From: Chloroflexota bacterium
GTDB lineage: Bacteria; Chloroflexota; Anaerolineae; Anaerolineales; Anaerolineaceae
Reading direction: 5' to 3'
DNA: 64,000 bases
Assembly: GCA_012797815.1 (NCBI GenBank)
Contig: JAAZOK010000156.1
Location: 1 to 64,000, forward strand
Below are positions 4,930 through 22,827 of the stretch, one piece after another; the first letter of the stretch is position 1; the number at the start of each line of letters is the position of its first letter. The notes below the pieces were generated by a model. The model saw only the letters and a program-made list of their open reading frames with translations. It had not been told where the DNA came from and did no database searches. Both the position numbers and the translations under genes were made by a program.

Positions 4930-5982
4930 TCAAGTGACTATGACCAATGTGCCTTTGTTGGACACAAATTTCTCCTGACTGGGTGGGACGACCGGCTGAC
5001 TCCACAAGTAGATCCAGCGTGCAGCCTGGATGGGGAGATTTACACAGCCATGACTCCTCTGCGTGCCAAAATCGTTGTGCCAATATGTCCCGTGAAAAGC
5101 GATGCCACTGGAAGTGAAATAGGAGACCCACGGTACGCCATACAATTCATTGTCATTATCATTGTCACCGATGAGATCGGTATGGACCATGTGCCGGGAG
5201 GGGCGTTTGTAATTGATGTGATAACTTCCCGGTGAGGTGGAAAGGTCGATCCCATCATCCAGTATCCCGGTGGATGCAATGGACATGAAAACTGCTTTCC
5301 CATATTCATAGGCGATCACCATCTGATCTTCGATAATCACTTCGATCATCTTTTCTTCGGGGGGAACATCCGTTGAAAAGGGCAGCAGATCGTCTTCATT
5401 TAACAGTGCTACATGGTTTGCCTCCACGTAATATATATCTCCCCAGCGGTCTTCCCTCACCTTGTAATAGATATCCCCGTTATTCTCGCTGTAAACACCC
5501 ACTATCCAGTGTGTGGAGCCATAAAAAAATAACTGGTAATCTTCTTCGCTGGCTTTAGAGGGGTCCGCTGTCCAGGCTTGGGTGTAGGGGACGCTGATGA
5601 CGCCCAGTTCCCTGTTAGCCTGGATGTGATCCCGCACCGCTGTAATTTGCCGGCGCACCGGCTGGATGCTGTTGGCGGGCAGATAACCGTAATTGGGGAC
5701 TTCAAACCAGGAATGGTTGTGAGCGTTGATGGCATCTCCCATCACTTCATTCCCCAATGGAAGCACCTCATTCATCTTCAGATACTGCTTGACTTGTGAA
5801 GAAAAAGAGGGCTCTTTATAGATGATGGTGTCATGGTGAAAGACTCTCCCCAATAAAGGGCTGGTGGGATCCACGTTTGTCGCGAGAGGGTTTTTAAATA
5901 GAGCATTGACGGTAATAAATCCTCCCAGCGCAGCTTGCACACTTGCTTTGAGAAATTCTCTGCGGGATAGATCTCGCTTCAT
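4930..5982 (-). CDS. L,D-transpeptidase with Tat-like signal (YkuD family)
   Basis: 350 residues. The N-terminus carries a twin-arginine-type motif (SRREFLKAS) before a hydrophobic segment, so export by Tat is likely. Two SH3-like stretches follow (about 45-110 and 120-205), and the YkuD catalytic domain occupies about 210-335. Its conserved His (HGTYWHND) and catalytic Cys (SHGCVNLP) are present. The enzyme should form 3-3 peptidoglycan cross-links or attach proteins to the wall. It is 14 bases downstream of a second L,D-transpeptidase gene, forming a three-gene cell-wall operon with the amidase-like gene. Confidence 0.9.
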   Translation of the reverse strand: MKRDLSRREFLKASVQAALGGFITVNALFKNPLATNVDPTSPLLGRVFHHDTIIYKEPSFSSQVKQYLKMNEVLPLGNEVMGDAINAHNHSWFEVPNYGYLPANSIQPVRRQITAVRDHIQANRELGVISVPYTQAWTADPSKASEEDYQLFFYGSTHWIVGVYSENNGDIYYKVREDRWGDIYYVEANHVALLNEDDLLPFSTDVPPEEKMIEVIIEDQMVIAYEYGKAVFMSIASTGILDDGIDLSTSPGSYHINYKRPSRHMVHTDLIGDNDNDNELYGVPWVSYFTSSGIAFHGTYWHNDFGTQRSHGCVNLPIQAARWIYLWSQPVVPPSQEKFVSNKGTLVIVT

Positions 5983-5996
5983 TAATTCAATTCCCT

Positions 5997-7019
5997 TTAG
6001 TCATGTACGAACACATACGTGCCGATCGATGCATTTTGATAGACCCAGGCGGCATCTTCCGTTCTCATATTAACGCAACCATGGCTCATAGGAGTGCCAA
6101 AATTGCTGTGCCAGTAGGTTCCGTGCAGACTATAGCCCTTATAGAAGAACATAGAATAGGGTACATCCGGTAGGTGATATCCGGGACCGATCATCGTGTA
6201 GGTGGGATACATGGCATAGATCTTATAAGTCCCTTTGATGGTAGGATGGCTGCTGGTGCCGGTGGAGACCAGAAAGGACGCCAGAAAGGTATCGCCGCGA
6301 TAGGTGTAAACCATTTGTTCGCTCAAATCCACCTCGACCCAAAAAGCATTGGTCCCGCTTACCTGCTCTGGAATATCCCAGGAATGGGCAAAATAGGAAA
6401 CGTAGGTTTTATCTACCGTGGCGGTTGGGACCGGAGTTGAAGTGGGTATGGGTGTAGGGGTGAAGGTCGGGGTAGGCGTGACCGTGGGAGTGAGGGTCGG
6501 TTTGACGACCACTCCCTGTGGTCGCGGGTCTTTGAGTGCGGTATGGCTATTATAGAGAATCGGCATCCCATACCAGGCAAACCATGCCAGTCCTCCTATG
6601 ACCAGGAAAATGAAAAGGATGATCGCCCAGGGTGAAGAGTGTTTTTTTTCTTTCTTTTTCAGTTTTTCAGGTTTGCCGGAAGAAGTCTGTTTTGCGCGAG
6701 TTTTTAATTTTGTGGTATCTTCTTGTGCCCTACCTTGTTTTTTCTGGCTCTCTTCTTCTTTTCCCTTTTCGATCGCCCAGCGTAATCCTGCACGTGCTTT
6801 TTTATTTTGTGGATTCAATTCAAGTACTTTAGTAAGATAGGTCATGCTTTCTTTAGGCGTGCTAACGGCTGCCAGGATGAGATAGATTTCTTCATTCTCT
6901 GGCAATCCCTTCAGCGCTTTTAGTGCCCATTCGTGAGCAGCATTCTTATCCCCTGCCTTTAAAGCGCTTTTGGCTTTTTCAAGCATGATGATATATGAAT
7001 TTGAAGTGTTATTGGTCAT
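5997..7019 (-). CDS. L,D-transpeptidase with cytoplasmic TPR region and one membrane anchor
   Basis: 340 residues in an unusual order: residues 5-75 are TPR-like helices, a Lys/Glu-rich linker follows, one membrane segment lies at about 130-150, then a Thr-Pro-rich stalk (about 170-200), and the YkuD catalytic domain at about 205-340. The active-site His (HGTYWHSN) and Cys (SHGCVNM) are intact. The arrangement implies a type II membrane protein with TPRs inside and the transpeptidase outside. Its start overlaps the end of the amidase-like gene by 11 bases, which indicates translational coupling. The TPR part could dock a cytoplasmic partner; that is inference. Confidence 0.88.
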   Translation of the reverse strand: MTNNTSNSYIIMLEKAKSALKAGDKNAAHEWALKALKGLPENEEIYLILAAVSTPKESMTYLTKVLELNPQNKKARAGLRWAIEKGKEEESQKKQGRAQEDTTKLKTRAKQTSSGKPEKLKKKEKKHSSPWAIILFIFLVIGGLAWFAWYGMPILYNSHTALKDPRPQGVVVKPTLTPTVTPTPTFTPTPIPTSTPVPTATVDKTYVSYFAHSWDIPEQVSGTNAFWVEVDLSEQMVYTYRGDTFLASFLVSTGTSSHPTIKGTYKIYAMYPTYTMIGPGYHLPDVPYSMFFYKGYSLHGTYWHSNFGTPMSHGCVNMRTEDAAWVYQNASIGTYVFVHD

Positions 7020-7770
7020 TAGTGTTTTCCAGCGTATCCAAATAGCAAAGAATACCGTTCACGATGCCGTTGGCTACATTTTCAGAATTGTCTATTAGAA
7101 CAGCTTGGTCATAATAAAGAGATCCCATTTCCAGATAGATGGTGGGGGTGTTGGGATTCACCGTTTCGAACAAAGTGTAATAGGGACTGGTGGATGGGAT
7201 GATCTGGTAAGTGAAATCAAGTTTAGTGGATGACTGATAGATCTCGCCCATGCATACTGCCAGTGCGTTGGATGAATTCAGATCGGATGTGGAGAGGGTG
7301 GTGCCGATCGAAAACCCGCTTTTATTCTCAGGGGTGTCCTCGCAGGATCCGGAATATAAAGCGATCAGACTGGCACCACGGAAGTTTACCAGATCGAGAT
7401 CATTGGCGGAAAATAACTTGACGGAGTAGCCGAGCGCGTTCAATTTGATGCTGACCTGATTTGAGATGGCCTCGTTCACATCCGCTTCCACGATGCCGTT
7501 TTCGCAAACATTCCCACTATCGGTCTGCCAGTGTCCGATCAGGATGCCGATGGACGAGGATGCCGATCCTGCTCCCGCGCTGCTCTCATTTTGATTGATC
7601 TGGGCAACTTCTGATTGTGAGAATAATTTGTAGGGGTTCCATAATGTCAGAACGGTAGCCAACATAGCTGCTACCAGCACGATGGTTTGCAGCACACGTC
7701 CGGTGCTATAAATTGCAGGACGCTGGCTGGGTTCATTTTCAGGTGGTAGGGTTGGATCGTTTTTTTTCAT
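7009..7770 (-). CDS. Degenerate N-acetylmuramoyl-L-alanine amidase-like protein (Amidase_3 type)
   Basis: 253 residues with an N-terminal membrane anchor at about 25-45 after a Pro-rich start. The outer domain begins with IGILIGHWQTDSG and has GIVEADVNEAIS, which fit the first His and the Glu zinc ligands of Amidase_3 enzymes. The place where the second ligand His is expected (normally an SIHAN-type motif) reads LIALYSGSCED instead, and a late Glu (IYLEMGSL) may be the catalytic Glu. The protein may therefore be a weak enzyme, use another ligand, or act only as a wall-binding factor. It is first in an operon with two L,D-transpeptidases and divergent from the PBP fusion gene. Confidence 0.65.
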   Translation of the reverse strand: MKKNDPTLPPENEPSQRPAIYSTGRVLQTIVLVAAMLATVLTLWNPYKLFSQSEVAQINQNESSAGAGSASSSIGILIGHWQTDSGNVCENGIVEADVNEAISNQVSIKLNALGYSVKLFSANDLDLVNFRGASLIALYSGSCEDTPENKSGFSIGTTLSTSDLNSSNALAVCMGEIYQSSTKLDFTYQIIPSTSPYYTLFETVNPNTPTIYLEMGSLYYDQAVLIDNSENVANGIVNGILCYLDTLENTNDQ

Positions 7771-7873
7771 ATCTTTAAAATAACAATTGCAAGATCATTA
7801 CCAGTATATGGAAAATAGAATATTACCAAAATAGTCCATTTTGAAATTATACTTTAAGGTAAGCTGAGTTAAT

Positions 7874-10800
7874 ATGATAAATAAAACCGAATTATCCCCG
7901 TTTGAAAAGCAGGTCTTGTTAAAGATCGCACGCGAGGCAATTGCTGCTGCTGTGCATGGTAAACCTTTGCCAGAACTTGACCTGCAAAACATCCCCGCTG
8001 CTCTGCAGGAATACGGTGCCAGCTTTGTAACCCTGACCATCGCTGGTCGTTTACGCGGCTGCATCGGTACCCTTGAAGCTTACCAACCGTTAGCGCAGGA
8101 TGTACAGGAACACGCTGTGGCAGCAGCCATGGAAGATTATCGCTTTTCGCCACTACGGGATGAAGAGCTCGACCGGATAGAGATCGAAATTTCTCGTCTG
8201 ACCCCAACAACATCACTGTCTTATTCCGATCCTGCCGAATTGCCGCAATTGCTGCACCCTTTCGTGGATGGGGTGGTATTGCAGGATGGTTACCGTCGCG
8301 CCACTTTCTTGCCGCAAGTATGGGAGCAATTACCGGATGCGCAGGAATTTCTCACCCATTTATGCTTGAAAATGGGCGCCTCTGGAAACCTCTGGCGGCA
8401 GAAAGTCCTGCAGGTGGGCATCTATTCTGTTGAAGAATTCAAAGAATCCTCCCTTGAAGATCCCGAATCTCGCACTCCCCATGAAAAGGAGATGCATTCT
8501 TCCGATCCGCAGGATAACGATAGTGCTGCTTCCGTTATGGAATCTACCAAGCAGATCAGGGTCAGGGAAGAGACCAAACCTGTCCCGGTCCAGAAACCTG
8601 ATTCCGGGAACCATTTGATACAGAAGGGGATCGATGCTGTCTCTACATTGGCGAAACGTTTATTAAAAGGGATTAAGGAACTCTTTTCGAATGGAAAGGG
8701 CGGTGGTGGGCGGAGAAACAAAAAAGAGAAGGGCGGGAAAGGCTGTTTCCCGCGTGCATTGCTGTGGACAACATTGGGTATTCTGGCACTTTTTGTTATT
8801 TTCTCCATTTTTTTGACCGTCCAATATTTTGCCATCGCAGCCACCCTGCCCAGCGTGGAAGATCTGCGTGCCAAAGCTTCCCAATTTGAGACGACCCGCA
8901 TTTATGATCGCAATGGCAATTTGATCTATGAGATCCTGGATCCGAATGCTGGCTTTCGCACTTATATTCCCCTTGAGAATATGTCCCCTTACATCATCGC
9001 TGCCACCATCGCTACCGAAGATAAGGATTTTTACAATAATCCCGGTTTTGATTTCTGGGGTATTGCCAGAGCTTTGTGGCAAAACTACACTTCAGGTACC
9101 ATCGTGTCAGGGGCATCTACCGTCACTCAGCAACTTGCACGCACGCTGTTGCTTTCCCCTGAAGAGCGGGCGGAACAAACGGTACAGCGCAAAGCCAAGG
9201 AGATCATCCTGGCAGCTGAGATCACCCGCCGCTATAGTAAAGATGAGATCCTGGAATTGTATTTAAACGAGATTTACTACGGGAATCTGGCTTATGGTAT
9301 CCAGGCGGCGGCCGAGACCTATTTCAATACATCGGCTGACCTGCTTGACCTGGCACAGGCTTCTTTTTTAGCCGGTCTTCCACAGGCTCCGGCGGTCTAT
9401 GATGTGTTCAGCAATCCTGAGGCTACCTTCCTGCGCCACCAGGATGTTGTCAATCTGATGTACCAGTTGAGTGCGGAGGAGAACTGCATCGAAGTGAGCA
9501 ACAGCGTCGCACCGGTTTGCGTGAGTATGGATGAAGCAGTGGCAAGTGTGTTGGAGATCGAGGATTATGCTTTTCAACAAAAAGAGATCAGCATGCCTTT
9601 CCCTCATTGGGTGAGTTATGTTCGTGCTTTGTTGGAAGCACAATTTGATGCTCAGACCATCTATCGTTCCGGCTTTAGTATCTACACTACACTTGACCCT
9701 GAATTGCAGAACTATGCCCAAAAAGCAGTTACACAGCAGGTGGCAGCGCTGGTGGAAAATAATGCCTCAGATGGCGCGCTGGTTGCGGTCTATCCCAGGA
9801 GCGGTGAGATCCTGGCAATGGTCGGCTCTGCTGATTTCAATAATGAAGCGATCTCAGGGCAGGTAAATATGGCGGTTTCCCCACGTCAACCGGGCTCATC
9901 CATCAAACCACTTACCTATGCAGCGGCTTTCGAGAAAGGTTGGACGGCTTCCACCCTGATCTGGGATGTGAAGAGTGAATTTCCGCCCTCCGGAGACGAA
10001 AATGATCCCCGCGCCCCCTATATTCCGGTGAATTACGATGGAAAATACCACGGTCCGGTATTGGTGCGCACTGCCCTGGGCAGTTCTTACAATATCCCGG
10101 CGGTAAAAACGCTGCAGTATGTGGGAATCTACGATGACCCTGATACGCCGGAAGAGGATGGATTGATCAAATTCGCAGAACGCATGGGTATCACGACTCT
10201 GACCAGGGATGACTACGGTCTTTCTTTGACGTTAGGTGGGGGGGATGTGTCCTTACTGGAATTGACCTCCGCTTATGCGATTTTTGCCAACAGTGGGGTG
10301 CGTGCTGAACCATACGCCATTTCGCGCATTGTCGATCATGCTGGCAATGTGGTTTATGAACATAGCCAAAATAACCAGCAGGTTCTCAATGCCGATTATG
10401 CTTACCTGATCACCGATATTCTCGCGGATAATGCAGCGCGCAGCCCTGCATTCGGGAACAATTCGATCCTGAACCTGCCCTTTAAAGCATCCGTGAAAAC
10501 CGGCACTACCAACGATTTTCGCGATAATTGGACGCTGGGATATACCCCTGATATCGCGATCGGGGTGTGGGTGGGTAATGCAGATTACACCCCCATGCAG
10601 AATACCAGTGGTCTGACCGGTGCCGCCCCCATCTGGGAGGATGTTATCCAATATGCCATCCAGCGGTATACCGGCGGAGTACCTTCGGTGGTGGAAAAAC
10701 CCTCTACCATCACAAACGAGGTGATCTGTTCCATCAGTGGCGCCAAACCTTCTGAAAGGTGTCCGAGCCAAAGAGGGGAGATATTTGCCATTGATCGCCC

Positions 10801-11506
10801 ACCGCTCTCTGCAGAAAATGATCTGTGGAAAAAGGTCGAGATCGATACCTGGACAAATAAAGAAGTCTCTCTTTACTGCACGGAATATAATGAAGAAAAA
10901 TGGACCCTGAACGTGAGTGATGAATGGGGTAAAAAGTGGATCACGGGTACCAGCGCGGGCAAAGAATGGGCAGCCGATATGGGTTTTGACGACCAGATCA
11001 TTTTCACGCCTGACGAGAAGTGCTCTGAAAATGATTCCCAACCAACCATTAAGTTCGTTGGTTTATCGGATGGCGCCGTTCTCAATCAAAATCCACTTGA
11101 AATAAAGGTGGTCGTTGATGCCCCATCGCATTTTAAGAATTTCAAACTGATGGTAGGGGAAGGATCGGATCCGGATAAGTGGAAGGTAGTGCTGGATGAT
11201 GTCGATCGTACGTATCCCGACGCGACCGTTATTTATACCCTCGACCTGTATGATTACCACAGTTCAATCATCACCCTGCGCTTATTTGTGGAAAATGACA
11301 TGAACGGTTATGCGGAGAAGAAGGTCAAATTATCATTGCAATTGCCAACGCTGACACCCACGGTTACACCCACTCCAACAGAGACGCCCACGCCAACACC
11401 GGAAGTTACTGCCACAGAAACCCCAACGCCTACTGCAACGGGGTCGTTTACCGAAACACCGACTGAAACACTCACAATTGTGCCGGTTTCATCTGCTACT
11501 CCGTAG
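7874..11506 (+). CDS. AMMECR1 domain fused to class A penicillin-binding protein
   Basis: One uninterrupted 1210-codon frame. Residues 10-190 are an AMMECR1 domain (LRGCIGT at 60-66; FSPLRDEEL; IEISRLTP). A charged linker and a basic Gly-rich stretch lead to one membrane segment at about 297-320. Residues 335-510 are a GT51 glycosyltransferase (ATEDKDFY with the catalytic Glu at 382; VSGASTVTQQLAR). Residues 600-930 are a transpeptidase with SxxK at 675-678, SxN at 738-740 and KTGT at 875-878. A C-terminal beta region and a Thr-Pro tail (from about 1155) follow. The PBP part polymerises and cross-links peptidoglycan outside the cell; the AMMECR1 part would stay in the cytoplasm. A second, internal start for the PBP alone is not excluded. 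Confidence 0.9.
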   Translation: MINKTELSPFEKQVLLKIAREAIAAAVHGKPLPELDLQNIPAALQEYGASFVTLTIAGRLRGCIGTLEAYQPLAQDVQEHAVAAAMEDYRFSPLRDEELDRIEIEISRLTPTTSLSYSDPAELPQLLHPFVDGVVLQDGYRRATFLPQVWEQLPDAQEFLTHLCLKMGASGNLWRQKVLQVGIYSVEEFKESSLEDPESRTPHEKEMHSSDPQDNDSAASVMESTKQIRVREETKPVPVQKPDSGNHLIQKGIDAVSTLAKRLLKGIKELFSNGKGGGGRRNKKEKGGKGCFPRALLWTTLGILALFVIFSIFLTVQYFAIAATLPSVEDLRAKASQFETTRIYDRNGNLIYEILDPNAGFRTYIPLENMSPYIIAATIATEDKDFYNNPGFDFWGIARALWQNYTSGTIVSGASTVTQQLARTLLLSPEERAEQTVQRKAKEIILAAEITRRYSKDEILELYLNEIYYGNLAYGIQAAAETYFNTSADLLDLAQASFLAGLPQAPAVYDVFSNPEATFLRHQDVVNLMYQLSAEENCIEVSNSVAPVCVSMDEAVASVLEIEDYAFQQKEISMPFPHWVSYVRALLEAQFDAQTIYRSGFSIYTTLDPELQNYAQKAVTQQVAALVENNASDGALVAVYPRSGEILAMVGSADFNNEAISGQVNMAVSPRQPGSSIKPLTYAAAFEKGWTASTLIWDVKSEFPPSGDENDPRAPYIPVNYDGKYHGPVLVRTALGSSYNIPAVKTLQYVGIYDDPDTPEEDGLIKFAERMGITTLTRDDYGLSLTLGGGDVSLLELTSAYAIFANSGVRAEPYAISRIVDHAGNVVYEHSQNNQQVLNADYAYLITDILADNAARSPAFGNNSILNLPFKASVKTGTTNDFRDNWTLGYTPDIAIGVWVGNADYTPMQNTSGLTGAAPIWEDVIQYAIQRYTGGVPSVVEKPSTITNEVICSISGAKPSERCPSQRGEIFAIDRPPLSAENDLWKKVEIDTWTNKEVSLYCTEYNEEKWTLNVSDEWGKKWITGTSAGKEWAADMGFDDQIIFTPDEKCSENDSQPTIKFVGLSDGAVLNQNPLEIKVVVDAPSHFKNFKLMVGEGSDPDKWKVVLDDVDRTYPDATVIYTLDLYDYHSSIITLRLFVENDMNGYAEKKVKLSLQLPTLTPTVTPTPTETPTPTPEVTATETPTPTATGSFTETPTETLTIVPVSSATP

Positions 11507-11642: not shown

Positions 11643-11930
11643 ATGAAGGAAGCTAAAGTTGTTGTAAATAATAAAGTTGGGCTGCATGCAAGACCTGCTG
11701 CACTTTTTGTCCAGACTGCATCAAAGTTTCAAAGTGAAATTAGTGTTTCCTGCCATGATCCCAAGGAAGATAAACTCCGCACAGCAAATGCGAAAAGCAT
11801 TCTCGGAATCCTGACGTTGGGTGTGTTTCAGGGAATTGAGATCACGATCAAAGCTGATGGAACGGATGAAGAAGATGCTGCCAAGGCGCTGGTGGAATTG
11901 GTCGAAAACAATTTCGGAGAAGAAGCATGA
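11643..11930 (+). CDS. ptsH: Phosphocarrier protein HPr
   Basis: 95 residues, slightly longer than the usual 85-90. The phosphorylated His is at 15 in VGLHARPA. The helix with the regulatory Ser is kept as AKSILGILTLG (Ser 52), displaced by a few inserted residues in the preceding loop. HPr takes phosphate from PEP through enzyme I and passes it to EII permeases or other acceptors. The conserved regulatory Ser means HPr kinase control is possible, but no hprK lies in the window. Its stop overlaps the ptsI start by four bases (ATGA), so the two are translationally coupled. Confidence 0.95.
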   Translation: MKEAKVVVNNKVGLHARPAALFVQTASKFQSEISVSCHDPKEDKLRTANAKSILGILTLGVFQGIEITIKADGTDEEDAAKALVELVENNFGEEA

Positions 11931-13660
11931 AAAAGCTGAAGGGCGTTGCAGCTTCCCGCGGGATTTGCATCGGACCAGCCTTTCAATTTCTACGCACTGA
12001 ACTCAATACTGAAAAAATCGAAACAAATGATCCTGAAGCTGAAATTATTCGGCTGGATGCTGCAATTAAAACTGCCAAAGATCAAATCGAAAACATTTAC
12101 CAAAAAGCACGCGGTGAATCAAGTGCAGCCGATGCTGAGATCTTCCAGGCTCATAAGATGATTTTGGATGATCCCGAAATGATTTCTGCCATTAAGACCC
12201 GCATTGTTGATGAGAGGGTGAATGGTGAATTTGCGGTTGCTGAAACAGCCAAGACTTTTGCAGCAACCATGGCAGCCATGGACGACGAATATTTTGCAGC
12301 CCGCGCCACCGATATCATGGATGTGGCGAATCGGCTGCTGCGGGTAATGATGAATGTGGCGGAATCTCCCACGGAAGGATTACAGGAACCTTCCATTATT
12401 CTGGCAGATGACCTGACTCCGTCCGATACGGTTTTATTAGATAAGACCATGGTACTGGGGTTCTGTATTGCACAGGGCTCGGCTACCTCTCACACTGCTA
12501 TTCTCGCACGCGGGCTTGGATTGCCGGCGGTGGCGGGTGCCGGGAATGATGTCATGCAGATCAAAAGCGGCACGAAAATGATTGTGGATGGTAGCAATGG
12601 ATTGGTATTTTTAGACCCTGATGCGGCAACCGAACAGGAATATAAGAGACGCAAAGAGACCAGCCAGAATCTACAGGCAGAAGCATTGAAGTTTGCCCAT
12701 GAACATGCGAAAACGATCGATGGCGCTGAATTCGAGATCGTTGCCAATATTGGAAATGTGGAAGACGCAAAATTTGCAGTAGAAAATGGTGCGGAAGGAG
12801 TTGGTCTGCTACGTACCGAGTTTTTATATCTCGAAAGAAATTCTTTGCCAACCGAAGAAGAACAATACAAGGCTTATAAAGCCATTATGGATGTCTTCGG
12901 AGATAATCCGGTGGTGCTGCGTACCCTGGATGTAGGCGGGGATAAAGAGATACCGTATCTTCATCTGGAAAAAGAAATGAACCCATTTCTTGGTGAAAGA
13001 GCGCTACGTCTGTGTTTGAGTCGTCCTGATATCTTCAAACCCCAATTACGGGCGGCATTACGTGCTGGGGTGGGACATAATTTGAAAATCATGTTCCCCA
13101 TGGTCGCCACCCTGTGTTGTGTGCGCGATGCTAAAGCTGTAGTGGATGAATGTAAAGCTGAATTGCGTGAAGAAGGTATTCCCTTTGCGGAGGATGCAGA
13201 AATTGGCATCATGGTCGAGATCCCCTCCGCCGCCGTGATCGCAGATCAACTGGCCAAAGAAGTTGACTTTTTCTCCATTGGCACAAATGACCTCAGCCAG
13301 TATACGATGGCTGCCGATCGAACCAATCCAAAGGTCGCCAAGTTCTCCAATGCTTTCCAACCGGCAGTGCTGCGGTTGATCAAGATGGTCATCAAGGCTG
13401 CTCACGAAGAAGGAAAATGGGTTGGAATGTGTGGTGAATTAGCCGGTGAACCATTGGCAGCACCGATCCTGGTGGGACTTGGTCTGGATGAGTTCAGCAT
13501 GAGCCCACCCTTCATTCCCCTGGTAAAACAGATCATCCGGAATCTGAAAGCGGATGAAATGGTCGCCCTGGCAGAAGCAGTGTTGCAACTTGAGGCACCG
13601 GAAGACATTCAAGATTTCGTCAGAAAAGAGATCCCGTTCATCGGTGAGATCGCTTCATAA
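11927..13660 (+). CDS. ptsI: PEP-protein phosphotransferase enzyme I
   Basis: 577 residues, the normal length. The swivelling domain has the active His at 189 in GSATSHTAILARGLGLP. The PEP-binding barrel shows VLLRTEF-type (GVGLLRTEFLYLER), LRTLDVGGDKEI, MVEIPSAA and FFSIGTNDLSQYTMAADR motifs, and a late Cys (VGMCGELAGEP). The enzyme autophosphorylates from PEP and charges HPr. It follows ptsH with a four-base overlap and is followed by a terminator. No sugar-specific EII gene is nearby, so the phosphate acceptor may be a regulator or dihydroxyacetone kinase elsewhere. Confidence 0.96.
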   Translation: MKKLKGVAASRGICIGPAFQFLRTELNTEKIETNDPEAEIIRLDAAIKTAKDQIENIYQKARGESSAADAEIFQAHKMILDDPEMISAIKTRIVDERVNGEFAVAETAKTFAATMAAMDDEYFAARATDIMDVANRLLRVMMNVAESPTEGLQEPSIILADDLTPSDTVLLDKTMVLGFCIAQGSATSHTAILARGLGLPAVAGAGNDVMQIKSGTKMIVDGSNGLVFLDPDAATEQEYKRRKETSQNLQAEALKFAHEHAKTIDGAEFEIVANIGNVEDAKFAVENGAEGVGLLRTEFLYLERNSLPTEEEQYKAYKAIMDVFGDNPVVLRTLDVGGDKEIPYLHLEKEMNPFLGERALRLCLSRPDIFKPQLRAALRAGVGHNLKIMFPMVATLCCVRDAKAVVDECKAELREEGIPFAEDAEIGIMVEIPSAAVIADQLAKEVDFFSIGTNDLSQYTMAADRTNPKVAKFSNAFQPAVLRLIKMVIKAAHEEGKWVGMCGELAGEPLAAPILVGLGLDEFSMSPPFIPLVKQIIRNLKADEMVALAEAVLQLEAPEDIQDFVRKEIPFIGEIAS

Positions 13661-13717: not shown

Positions 13718-15952
13718 TTAAAGTAGCTTGAGCTGGGTGGGTGGATCCCATAAGGGCGGGTCGGCATCCAGAATATCCTGCCAGGCTTGCAGGGTAAGAT
13801 TTTCCTGATTGAAGATATTCCTGAGTTGACGATATTTCAAAAGATGACCATTGTGCGTGAGTGCTTCGTTCAGAAGTAAATTTCGTTTGCGCTTGACCAG
13901 AATTAGGCGTGAACGGCTGGCGGGAAAAACCACCACCTTCTCAGTGAGATTTTTAACAGGGTTATCTTGAAGAAACATTTGGAATATCGCGGTGTTGGTG
14001 AGGAAGAAGCGATATCTGGGGCGACCATCCTTGGTTTGCCATTCGATCTCTTCTCCAATGATGGTTTTAAATCCCAGATTCTTTCCTAATTGGATGACCA
14101 GCGTGCGCATTTCGTTGAGATCATTTTCACGTTTTGACGGTTCTTCTCCCGGGTCAAGCTGGTAGGTCTGTGTGTCCAAATTGACACGGGTAGCATATGA
14201 CTCCAAACAGGCTTTGCCGAAGAATCTATCAGGGGTGAACAAACCCTGGAATTGTGTGCATAACGATCGATATATATCGGGGAATTCAAGAATGGGCTGT
14301 TGCCGGATCATCGCTACCACGTGTTGCTCGATGCGGTCATCAAGAGAGGGTTCCATCTGGCGAGGGTCATTGAGACTCCATTGAACATTCCCCGAACTTT
14401 CTCCGGTGAATTGGCGATAAATCGCCCGATTGGCTAGCTCTGTCTGCAAATCGTTAATGATCGCATTGTAAAGATCAGTGTTCTCACCGGTAAGTTGGGC
14501 AGGCAACCCTGCCTGTTCTGCCATGGTCAACAATTTGATGAAATAAAGGTCTTTGAACGTAGCTGGTTCTCCCTTTTTTGCCAGGAAACGGATCAGACCA
14601 TCTCGGATTTGTTGTGACGAATCCTGCGTTTTATTGGGCAGGTTGGATGATCGCGAACTCCAAATATATTGGAATATCTCATCATTATTTCGATATGCAT
14701 ATCCTTCCAGTTGCAATCCAGCCTGATAAGCCCCCAGTATTACAGCCAATTGATAGGAGGGGGTGAAATTCATGGATAAACCTAAAATGTTGTTTTCCGC
14801 AGAGGATTCTGGCTGGAATGATGTGAAAGTTGTCGTCAGGGCTTGAGCGAACCAAAACCAGCCGTAACGTTGCCTGGAAAGCGCGGCTAACATTCCTTCC
14901 GCAGCTTTTTTACCCAGCAGCCAGGCAGACCATACCGCTGAAAAGGTCCAGAAAGCCTGGTTGGGTCGCGGAAAGATGCAATAACATTTCTCCATGTGGA
15001 GTGCGCTATTTTGCGAGTAGAGGTCGTCTGAGATCTTGCGATCGAAAAGGCAGATACTGGAGGATCGATCGGGTAATAACGGGAAAGAAGTGACCTGGCA
15101 GGGTTTTTTGAATCCTGTCCATGTTTTAATTGCCTGAAAAAGAGCATGATAGATATTCTTTTCAAAGAATGTGGCCGGAGTGGTTAATTGTTGGGGGCGA
15201 TAGCCGCGGGACGGCCAATACCATAAGGTCGAAGCATGATCGAAGACCTCTACCAGCAGCGCAGCCAGCATGGCTCTTACTGCACTTGAAGCATTCAACC
15301 TATCCAGAATATTGAAGAGGATCACAATGAGGTGTAACGCACGCGGTGTGTAACAGGCAAGCGTGTACTGAAGTGCTTTTTGGTTGTCGATACCTTCGAT
15401 CGTACAACGTTGCAGAGCTCTAGACCGGTATACGGCGAAATTCCCGATCTGCTGCAGACAATCGATATCATATTGTGCCACCGGGAAAGAACCGCTTTCA
15501 TGGCAGTGCGGGCAAATATAGACGACCAATTCAGGTATCTCTGCGTTCTTTTTCCAGACATATCCCTCTGCCATCACCGACCTGCCACAGTGGCGGCATT
15601 CCGTTTGATAAAGACTCTGGATATATTGATCCAGTTTCCGGGTATGCCATTCCTGCTCCAGAAGAAGATGTACACAGTTGCGGAATTCCTTTTCAGAATG
15701 ATTTTGTGCCAGCACTTCTGTCATCAGGCGCAGGATGGGATTTTTTTGTGCCTGGAAAACACGGAAACCGGCGCCAGCCGCTTCTAACGTATATAAGGGA
15801 TTTGACCCAAAGGGGTCGAGAATGTCACAACCTTCCGGGGCATTTCCTTGTAACCAGGTTGAAATTATCCCCTCATAGTAAGGAGGTAGAAAACGTTTTA
15901 ATGGATAACGATAGATCGATTCCCCGGGTTGTATGAAGGTTATCTCATGCAT
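13718..15952 (-). CDS. Large orphan DNA-methyltransferase-like protein
   Basis: 744 residues from ATG 15952, which has GGAGG 11 bases upstream; a further in-frame ATG at 16081 lies inside the opposing region and adds unconserved sequence. Near the N-terminus ILDPFGSNPLYTLEAAGAG (45-62) resembles the SAM-binding motif of N6/N4 DNA methyltransferases (DPFxGSGT). A zinc ribbon follows (Cys 119, 122, 147, 150). Where the catalytic DPPY motif is expected I find only LFDRKISDDLY, so methylation activity is doubtful. The last 230 residues form another domain (winged-helix-like then LGKNLGFKTIIGEEIEW and VVFPASRSRLILVKRKR), possibly nuclease-fold derived. No partner restriction gene is adjacent. Confidence 0.6.
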   Translation of the reverse strand: MHEITFIQPGESIYRYPLKRFLPPYYEGIISTWLQGNAPEGCDILDPFGSNPLYTLEAAGAGFRVFQAQKNPILRLMTEVLAQNHSEKEFRNCVHLLLEQEWHTRKLDQYIQSLYQTECRHCGRSVMAEGYVWKKNAEIPELVVYICPHCHESGSFPVAQYDIDCLQQIGNFAVYRSRALQRCTIEGIDNQKALQYTLACYTPRALHLIVILFNILDRLNASSAVRAMLAALLVEVFDHASTLWYWPSRGYRPQQLTTPATFFEKNIYHALFQAIKTWTGFKKPCQVTSFPLLPDRSSSICLFDRKISDDLYSQNSALHMEKCYCIFPRPNQAFWTFSAVWSAWLLGKKAAEGMLAALSRQRYGWFWFAQALTTTFTSFQPESSAENNILGLSMNFTPSYQLAVILGAYQAGLQLEGYAYRNNDEIFQYIWSSRSSNLPNKTQDSSQQIRDGLIRFLAKKGEPATFKDLYFIKLLTMAEQAGLPAQLTGENTDLYNAIINDLQTELANRAIYRQFTGESSGNVQWSLNDPRQMEPSLDDRIEQHVVAMIRQQPILEFPDIYRSLCTQFQGLFTPDRFFGKACLESYATRVNLDTQTYQLDPGEEPSKRENDLNEMRTLVIQLGKNLGFKTIIGEEIEWQTKDGRPRYRFFLTNTAIFQMFLQDNPVKNLTEKVVVFPASRSRLILVKRKRNLLLNEALTHNGHLLKYRQLRNIFNQENLTLQAWQDILDADPPLWDPPTQLKLL

Positions 15953-16046
15953 GGGTTTGAGATCCTCCAAATCTAGTATACAGGATATTGAGATCCTGGT
16001 GCGCGATCTTCTGGTGTTAAAATCAGGTAATACGAAGAGGCATAAA

Positions 16047-16817
16047 ATGCAGAGAAAATTGGAAATTCCGGGTAAAACCAAACCCTATGTGATGGCGCAC
16101 CGTGGCAACCGTGTGCAGTGCCCTGAAAATACCCTGACGGCATTTCAACAGGCTTTCAAAGACGGGGCGGATATTCTTGAAACGGATTTGCATTTAAGTA
16201 AGGACGGTCAATTCATCTGTATCCATGATGGCACTTTGGACCGCACAACTGATCGAACAGGTAGGATCGAAGATCTAACCGCAACAGAGATCAAGCAAGC
16301 CTCTGCTTTCAATCACATGCCAGGTTTTGAAAAAGAGCGTGTGCCCTTGTTGAATGAAACAACTGCGATCTTGCCGGAAGATGTGGCGCTGGCGCTTGAG
16401 TTGAAAAGTGACCGTTTTCTGGAAGAAGATATTTGCCGCAGATTAGTAGGGGCATTGAAAGATGCCGGGGTGTTGGAACGCACCATTGTGCTTTCCTTCA
16501 GCATGTCTCGAATTTTAACCGTTCGCAAAACGGCAGCCGATATGCCGATCGGTCTGATCACCATGAAAAAGATCGTTCCACCACCCCAGGTGGATATGGT
16601 GGGACCTTTTTTCCCGATCTTATGGTTAAACCCCTTTTATTTGCATACTGCCCATGATCGTGGTTTGCTGGTCTGTCCGCTTGATCCGGTTCCGGAAGCG
16701 CGTCTGAAGCATTATCTCAGAATAGGTTGTGATGCCATCATCACGGATAATTCTGCTGTCACCTGCCAGGCAGTTGAAGATTTACTGCCGGTGCTCCATC
16801 CTGAGAAAGGAAAATAG
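16047..16817 (+). CDS. Glycerophosphodiester phosphodiesterase
   Basis: 256 residues from ATG 16047 (GAAGAGG upstream); an in-frame ATG at 15933 overlaps the divergent gene. The GDPD fold is clear: VMAHRGN with the first catalytic His, PENTLTAFQQAF, GADILETDLHLSKDG with metal-binding Glu/Asp, and ICIHDGTLDRTTDRTG with the second His. The enzyme hydrolyses glycerophosphodiesters to glycerol-3-phosphate and an alcohol. No signal peptide is visible, so it is cytoplasmic, like UgpQ. It heads a four-gene plus-strand run; the next gene starts 41 bases downstream. Confidence 0.92.
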   Translation: MQRKLEIPGKTKPYVMAHRGNRVQCPENTLTAFQQAFKDGADILETDLHLSKDGQFICIHDGTLDRTTDRTGRIEDLTATEIKQASAFNHMPGFEKERVPLLNETTAILPEDVALALELKSDRFLEEDICRRLVGALKDAGVLERTIVLSFSMSRILTVRKTAADMPIGLITMKKIVPPPQVDMVGPFFPILWLNPFYLHTAHDRGLLVCPLDPVPEARLKHYLRIGCDAIITDNSAVTCQAVEDLLPVLHPEKGK

Positions 16818-21402: not shown

Positions 21403-22827
21403 TTATCGGGTTCGAACGCTGCTGAAGTATTCCTGTTCGATCGACTGCCATGTTTCATCGGTTTGTGCGTTGAAATAGGGTCTGAAAAGCTGCATCCTGT
21501 TTTGGATCATTTCCAGCATGCGGTTGGCAACCCGCCGGATGGCGAAATGGGCATTGGGAGCGGTGCGCAACTGGGTGAAATGTATCGCAGTGCGTAAGTT
21601 GAACCCTGCCAGTACGCGCCGATTGTAGGCATTGGGGATCACGTAAGATGCAGCCGCTTGCTGGTGGTGAACGATTTGTTCGTACGTGTCCCTGGCAAGC
21701 TGCATACTTTCTTCGAAATCAGTTTCCAGTCCGGCGTCAACCAGTAAACGCGGTACAGCATATCCCTCGTGAGGTGTCAAAGCTTGTGCAGTTTGTGTCA
21801 TCATGCGGTGGCGTTTGAATTCAAAATAGGCGCCCTGATCCATCAGGATGTCGAAAACGAAGCGGCTGTATTCCAGTTCTCTCAGGGGAATATCATGCGC
21901 ATCCAGGTTGCCGAAAAGAACATCGAGCAATTCGCGTTTTTCATCACCGCTCATCGTCTCCGTCACTTGGGTGAGATTGCCATAAGCAGTCTCTCCGAAC
22001 CGGTACAATAATGCGGTAAGGATACGTTCTTCAAATTCTTCGTCAAGATCGACCAGTTCACACCAATCATGGTTTTGATTTTCACTGGCGGGCAATGAGT
22101 GCAGCAATTCGGAGGTCTGCTGGCAAGCCTGCTTTAAATAGGGAACTGCCTCCACATATTTGATCAGGGCTGGTAAGTGGGTGAGAGCCACCTGTTTGAT
22201 TTCGCTCCCGATCTGGCGCACTTCTTCCAGTGGGTGTGAGAGCATCTTGCGCAGGGCGTGCTCGAGGGAACGTGCATTGATGGTTATACCAACGTTGGCA
22301 GTAGCGGCTGCTGGAAGATAGTAACGGCAAACGTCCATGCAACGGGCATGGATTTCTCGTTCGGTGTAATTCTTGTGTTGAGATTGTGCTTCTTGCTCAA
22401 GGTGAGCTCGAATCACTGGAAGGGCGGCATGGTATTTATTGAATAAGGTGCTGACGGTGCTTTGATAGAGATCCAACCAACCGGATTTCTTTATTTCATC
22501 CGGGATGAAAAAATGATCCGCGCTCCATACTTGATAGCGGGATGATTTTTCAGTGTAGGATGCCAGCCGGTTGGATTCAAGGCATTCTACTGCCAGGCGT
22601 GAGATGTTTTCTACTGCAATATGCAGCACGGCGTGTTCGGCAACGGATGCGTGTCCATAACCAACCACCCATTTCTCATGAAACCGGGAGCTTTTTTCAT
22701 CAGACAGTTCGTGTGCGATTTGGTCGAATGATTGGGGCGAGCGAGAGGTTTTAGCGAATGTAACGGCGATCGTTTCCGGATTTAGTTCCCTGGAATCCAG
22801 GAGGTAAATTCGCCTGTTATCATTCAT
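21403..22827 (-). CDS. Duplicated ThyX-like flavin-dependent thymidylate synthase homologue
   Basis: 474 residues, about twice the length of ThyX. Two ThyX-like halves are visible. The N-terminal half keeps the second part of the signature (R87, S90, E93, S95, R97, Y98 in NRLASYTEKSSRY) but has Ser-Asn in place of the leading Arg-His. The C-terminal half keeps the leading RHR (339-341) but not the rest (MMTQTAQAL follows). Each half also has the late NLRxxxHF-type helix (NARSLEHAL; NLRTAIHFTQLR). A complete site could form only between halves. It overlaps ribF by 8 bases at its start, which fits a need for FAD. True thymidylate synthase activity is not certain. Confidence 0.75.
   Translation of the reverse strand: MNDNRRIYLLDSRELNPETIAVTFAKTSRSPQSFDQIAHELSDEKSSRFHEKWVVGYGHASVAEHAVLHIAVENISRLAVECLESNRLASYTEKSSRYQVWSADHFFIPDEIKKSGWLDLYQSTVSTLFNKYHAALPVIRAHLEQEAQSQHKNYTEREIHARCMDVCRYYLPAAATANVGITINARSLEHALRKMLSHPLEEVRQIGSEIKQVALTHLPALIKYVEAVPYLKQACQQTSELLHSLPASENQNHDWCELVDLDEEFEERILTALLYRFGETAYGNLTQVTETMSGDEKRELLDVLFGNLDAHDIPLRELEYSRFVFDILMDQGAYFEFKRHRMMTQTAQALTPHEGYAVPRLLVDAGLETDFEESMQLARDTYEQIVHHQQAAASYVIPNAYNRRVLAGFNLRTAIHFTQLRTAPNAHFAIRRVANRMLEMIQNRMQLFRPYFNAQTDETWQSIEQEYFSSVRTR

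Follow-up and report, generated by a model that had tools for sequence, protein, structure and literature searches.

An AMMECR1 domain joined in frame to a class A penicillin-binding protein in one genus of the Anaerolineaceae

AMMECR1 occurs in archaea, bacteria and eukaryotes and has been tied to human disease. To our knowledge, no biochemical activity has been assigned to the AmmeMemoRadiSam protein A family. The function of AMMECR1 is described as "still unknown" (PMC5502304). For penicillin-binding proteins (PBPs), GpsB was found to bind the cytoplasmic mini-domains via arginine motifs (PMC6335420). In the literature searched for this study, no paper naming both AMMECR1 and penicillin-binding was found.

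The window analyzed here, a stretch of 64,000 nucleotides from a member of the Anaerolineaceae, contains a single frame of 1210 codons without internal stop (Table 1). The original prediction had described it as an AMMECR1 domain fused in frame to a complete class A PBP with intact motifs, and this description was borne out by the domain and motif searches. Pfam identified AMMECR1 at residues 16–189 (E 5e-44), Transgly/GT51 at 349–529 (1e-56) and Transpeptidase at 634–924 (5e-20), each with a score well beyond the threshold. The LRGCIG motif of AMMECR1 is located at residues 60–65 (nt 8051–8068). Both catalytic glutamates of GT51 are present, namely Glu 382 (EDKDF) and a second one in LNEIYYG (464–470), and the SxxK, SxN and KTG motifs of the transpeptidase are all intact. 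The score against TIGR02074 (PBP1A subfamily) is below the cut-off (490.8 vs. 508.75). This is not caused by the fusion, since the free PBP of Pelolinea falls short likewise (489.8).

Table 1. Features of the AMMECR1–PBP locus (positions within the 64,000-nt window).
Feature	Position	Strand	Basis
Two YkuD L,D-transpeptidase genes (4930–5982, 5997–7019), in conserved island	4930..7019	-	Pfam, gene clustering
Amidase_3 gene, divergent, in conserved island	7009..7770	-	Pfam, gene clustering
AAATTATACTTTAAGG block directly 5′ of AMMECR1 start; candidate promoter −10 (TATACT)	7844..7859	+	alignment; function inferred
AMMECR1–PBP fusion gene, 1210 aa	7874..11506	+	same frame in 4 congeners
AMMECR1 domain (AmmeMemoRadiSam system protein A), residues 16–189	7919..8440	+	Pfam PF01871, TIGR04335, fold match
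Variable junction, residues 191–221	8444..8536	+	stop-free and in frame in 5 species
Second half of linker: conserved stretch MEST...(E)TxP(I/V)P(I/V), then basic juxtamembrane segment	8537..8749	+	alignment
Single transmembrane segment, residues ~296–320	8759..8833	+	hydropathy and charge
GT51 glycosyltransferase domain, catalytic Glu 382 (nt 9017)	8918..9460	+	PF00912, motifs
Transpeptidase domain: SSIK 675, SYN 738, KTGT 875	9773..10645	+	PF00905, motifs
C-terminal extension with Thr/Pro-rich tail at the end	10664..11503	+	translation

The charge around the sole hydrophobic segment was found to be net +10 on the N-terminal side vs. 0 on the C-terminal side. This is consistent with a cytosolic N-terminus carrying AMMECR1, and GT51 and the transpeptidase would lie outside, in agreement with the topology predicted originally. 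In the genomes searched, the protein is a new architecture of two known domains, in which AMMECR1 is put on the predicted cytosolic face of a PBP. Apart from this fusion, which is present in all five species searched of the genus, no AMMECR1 open frame of more than 713 aa was detected in 400 Chloroflexota genomes, and no other AMMECR1–PBP architecture was found among the matches listed for 396 genomes of the class. Beyond Chloroflexota, a peptide-pattern scan reaching close relatives only was used. As far as searched, the fusion is limited to one genus with one origin and has no independent repeat.

The assignment of the N-terminal part to AmmeMemoRadiSam protein A was supported by the NCBIfam model TIGR04335 (AmmeMemoSam_A), which matched with 198.5 bits (cut-off 99) over model positions 2–175 of 175. 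The AlphaFold model of the domain reached a pLDDT of 94.5 (13-row alignment) and matched PDB 1zq7 with Z 23.0 and 1.6 Å over 182 residues; the Z values for the three family members 1zq7, 1wsc and 1vaj are 21–23. For residues 1–339, a single-sequence fold model gave a pLDDT of 47. All 58 invariant AMMECR1 positions, including LRGCIG, are retained in the fused forms, and LRGCIG is invariant in fused and free AMMECR1 alike, as the original prediction had asked to see.

Statements on the organism's own genome are based on searches of a 92% complete MAG of 179 contigs, in which the fusion is the sole AMMECR1 and the sole GT51 protein found. One match to each of the two domains was also obtained per fused genome (five species). 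Memo (194.8 bits, contig C99) and the AmmeMemoRadiSam radical-SAM enzyme (TIGR04337; 299.7 bits vs. cut-off 220, contig C88) are encoded apart from each other and from the fusion (contig C3). The possibility that this separation reflects loss of the system was rejected, as both the Memo and the radical-SAM gene were found. That the genome retains the complete AmmeMemoRadiSam set had not been noticed in the original prediction. Most genomes of the genus g4 (G427–G438; e.g., L112 and L117) carry a divergent AMMECR1 in frames of ~440–477 aa (some shorter), and Memo was not matched in these genomes.

Next, the junction was compared between species. The same single frame is present in four congeneric genomes (G502–G505, corresponding to L034, L035, L036 and L033; open frames 1220–1236). 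VEEF at the end of AMMECR1 and MEST, the first conserved stretch of the linker, are separated by 22, 31, 32, 36 and 40 codons in the five species, and these stretches are dissimilar in sequence. The junction frame is stop-free in all of them, with 3 to 7 stops per species in the other two frames together. An artificial joining of two genes during assembly or sequencing would be in line with the separate genes of the sister genera. Such an artefact is nevertheless extremely improbable and was rejected, because five species, whose MAGs stem from several independent projects, share the one frame and differ in their junction sequences. The original prediction had named two observations that would speak against it: the separate genes in relatives were indeed found, whereas a frameshift or assembly join was not. 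Sequence comparison thereby confirms that the fused frame is real.

The conservation of the parts differs. In a comparison of the two closest species, AMMECR1 had a dN/dS of 0.07, whereas the membrane segment plus GT51 gave 0.037 and the transpeptidase 0.031. The value for the junction is ~0.69, a rough figure as it covers only 30 codons. Judged by its dN/dS of ~0.07, the AMMECR1 part of the fusion is under strong purifying selection, and the fast-evolving linker argues against a rigid coupling interface.

The internal ATG at position 8537 (Met 222, MEST) is conserved in 5/5 fused species, and the sequence becomes more conserved from this codon on. The PBP could thus also, or mainly, be made from this codon, or the chain could be cleaved in the linker, which looks disordered and would be accessible to proteases, so that the two parts act apart. 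An independent PBP start at this ATG was considered and no ribosome site was found: a Shine-Dalgarno sequence ahead of it is absent in 5/5 species, although several genes of this window have none either. In addition, none of the five species has a stop or a break of frame in the stretch before the ATG, although a PBP made separately could do without it. Two separately acting products are considered improbable on this evidence, and a single chain is strongly implied. The block AAATTATACTTTAAGG directly upstream of the gene is nearly invariant in the alignment of all five fused species, which fits one transcript that may begin there.

For the origin of the fusion, ~20 kb around AMMECR1 were taken from 40 genomes of the family, and the genes were clustered and the clusters named. 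In the common family layout, one strand encodes a thioredoxin-TPR protein, a protein of ~140 aa, one or two YkuD L,D-transpeptidases and Amidase_3. Divergent from these are a flavin reductase and AMMECR1, with the class A PBP further on along the same strand. Genes for a DUF4013 protein, a cyclic-di-AMP receptor (PF06153) and an MGH1-like glycoside hydrolase lie on the opposite strand between AMMECR1 and the PBP.

Both AMMECR1 and the PBP could be placed on one contig in 64 family genomes. In 45 of these (18 genera), the PBP is located 2.6–9 kb downstream of AMMECR1 on the same strand; the two are adjacent or fused in 10 genomes (3 genera), and the PBP lies elsewhere in the remaining 9. The distance from the AMMECR1 stop to the PBP start is 11 nt in Pelolinea submarina (L038), 8 nt in genome G396 (L037) and 2 nt in L050, and these gaps of 2–11 nt suggest that the adjacent genes are translationally coupled.

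In the PBP tree, Pelolinea, then G396 and then the five fused proteins form one clade with 100/100 support. The fused domains are likewise one clade in the AMMECR1 tree (97/96). By these trees, the fusion goes back to a single event in the ancestor of the genus. The gene-order series and the two trees together therefore give the order of events: the intervening genes were lost, the two genes became adjacent and were then fused. Compared with the separate genes, the variable junction (residues 191–221) stands where the AMMECR1 stop and the start and N-terminus of the PBP formerly lay.

A basic motif, R[LMF][RK][RK][LI], was found near the N-terminus of 17 of the 23 free PBP relatives. No counterpart was found in the fused linkers, where the single pattern match belongs to the juxtamembrane helix, a non-equivalent place. 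As this comparison shows, the fusion event stripped the PBP of its short N-terminal basic motif.

Most of the family (L142, L143, L149, L153, L156, L169 and others) has the PF06153 gene in the interval from AMMECR1 to the PBP; in the fused and adjacent genera, the locus has lost it. In two families (L143, 8952–9476, and many family loci; L189–L195), a flavin reductase gene (PF01613) directly precedes AMMECR1 in the same orientation. The fused genus lacks this gene at the locus, and the organism's own genome has just a weak match on another contig. Directly 3′ of the fusion, genes for HPr and PtsI (11643–13660, +) are present in the fused genus as well as in Pelolinea (L158), and other loci rarely have them. 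A protein of 787 aa without Pfam match (13718–16081, −) is conserved beside the PBP in 18 of 41 loci. It has a DPFGS-like segment and CxxC pairs, recalling a methyltransferase with a zinc ribbon.

The original prediction had further suggested that the fusion could reveal a wall-related role of AMMECR1, and this part was sustained only in part. Across the family, AMMECR1 has genes for an amidase, L,D-transpeptidases and the PBP as its neighbors, and it has remained under purifying selection while fused. In the sister family, AMMECR1 again follows flavin reductase and is divergent from Amidase_3 and YkuD genes in several loci, so that amidase and L,D-transpeptidase genes flank it there too. A cluster HMM hint at an L,D-transpeptidase directly 3′ of AMMECR1 in this sister family was rejected, as the protein of ~600 aa contains only TPR in Pfam. 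Of 20 loci from outside this genus, 16–17 retain the wall genes and the PBP, and only 0–10 retain more distant genes.

As a control, ThyX from the same window was used as anchor, and its own block is kept in 18–20 of 20 loci. Gene order is modest evidence for function, because this control block is equally conserved and long blocks are normal in the family. Synteny as strong proof of function was set aside on account of the control block and because ThyX itself often remains in the region. The window also encodes a frame of 474 aa with two tandem Thy1/ThyX domains (21403–22827, −). Such a double ThyX in one frame of ~470–600 aa was found in nearly all family genomes searched.

However, the gene order suggests fusion by loss of the intervening genes, and the control block is well conserved too. 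Sensing of a metabolite or modification of a partner by AMMECR1 is therefore hypothetical. Losing the genes in between is enough to produce a fusion by a neutral route. The fusion could accordingly be passive, brought about by gene loss and stop loss, with both parts keeping their independent old jobs and the tether being without regulatory meaning; from its place at the membrane surface, AMMECR1 would then act on the usual substrate of AmmeMemoRadiSam. The stepwise loss of intervening genes visible in the gene-order series, the weak constraint on the linker, the complete AmmeMemoRadiSam set still present in the genome, the separate genes in most relatives and the single origin are all consistent with such a course. 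However, the fused state has been retained down to ~70% AMMECR1 identity across the fused species with no re-split in five species, the N-terminal basic motif of the PBP was sacrificed, and the tight packing already existed in the adjacent state of two sister genera. A passive fusion is thus a serious possibility, although it falls short of being probable.

A functional coupling of AMMECR1 to the PBP and wall synthesis is plausible, with the arguments close to balanced. As the comparison shows, the ancestor had AMMECR1 and the class A PBP in one conserved wall-gene island, with opposite-strand genes between them. Loss of the DUF4013, cyclic-di-AMP receptor and glycoside hydrolase genes made the two adjacent, and a further deletion then took the stop codon of AMMECR1 together with the start and the basic motif of the PBP, merging the frames. 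The resulting protein would be a membrane-anchored chain whose AMMECR1 part faces the cytosol and whose GT51 and transpeptidase domains are outside. There, AMMECR1 may keep its AmmeMemoRadiSam A role, one-to-one with the only class A PBP detected, and most likely serves as a cytosolic module replacing the regulatory N-terminus of the PBP; the binding of GpsB to PBP mini-domains in other bacteria is a precedent for such a docking site (PMC6335420). The ligand or partner state of AMMECR1 could in this way be linked in space, in amount and perhaps in activity to wall synthesis. A broader proposal sees AMMECR1 of the Anaerolineaceae as a module that regulates or modifies peptidoglycan synthesis from the cytosol. 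The fusion would then fix a partnership that the family already has as neighboring genes, and AmmeMemoRadiSam would act on or report to the wall machinery. This proposal is speculative and rather unlikely.

The fusion is one of few sequence clues to a partner of AMMECR1, and the partner here belongs to an enzyme class that is well understood and for which assays are at hand. Pelolinea submarina MO-CFX1, for which a complete genome exists, offers the unfused neighbor state, so that the function of AMMECR1 is open to direct tests. If the link is passive, the locus is still a clean worked case of domain fusion through gene loss.

Compared with known systems, the N-terminal part resembles AmmeMemoRadiSam system protein A (TIGR04335/PF01871) in its full-length domain, the LRGCIG motif, the fold and the presence of Memo and radical-SAM partners in the genome. 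It differs in that it is not free-standing but the N-terminal module of a membrane PBP, and in that its gene is not clustered with a Memo or radical-SAM gene. The C-terminal part is similar to class A PBPs (PBP1a-type; TIGR02074, PF00912 and PF00905) in its single membrane segment with predicted N-in orientation, the order of GT51 followed by transpeptidase and the catalytic motifs, whereas a folded cytosolic domain of 190 residues replaces the short N-terminal tail.

The gene pairs of Pelolinea submarina MO-CFX1 (L038/L158) and G396 are orthologous and have the same order and strand. In contrast to the fusion, they encode separate proteins, and their PBP retains the N-terminal motif RLRRI or RMRRI. 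With the GpsB-regulated PBPs (PMC6335420), in which a cytosolic N-terminus with an arginine motif is the docking site, the fusion would share the principle only: the fused proteins are without the motif and carry a folded domain instead.
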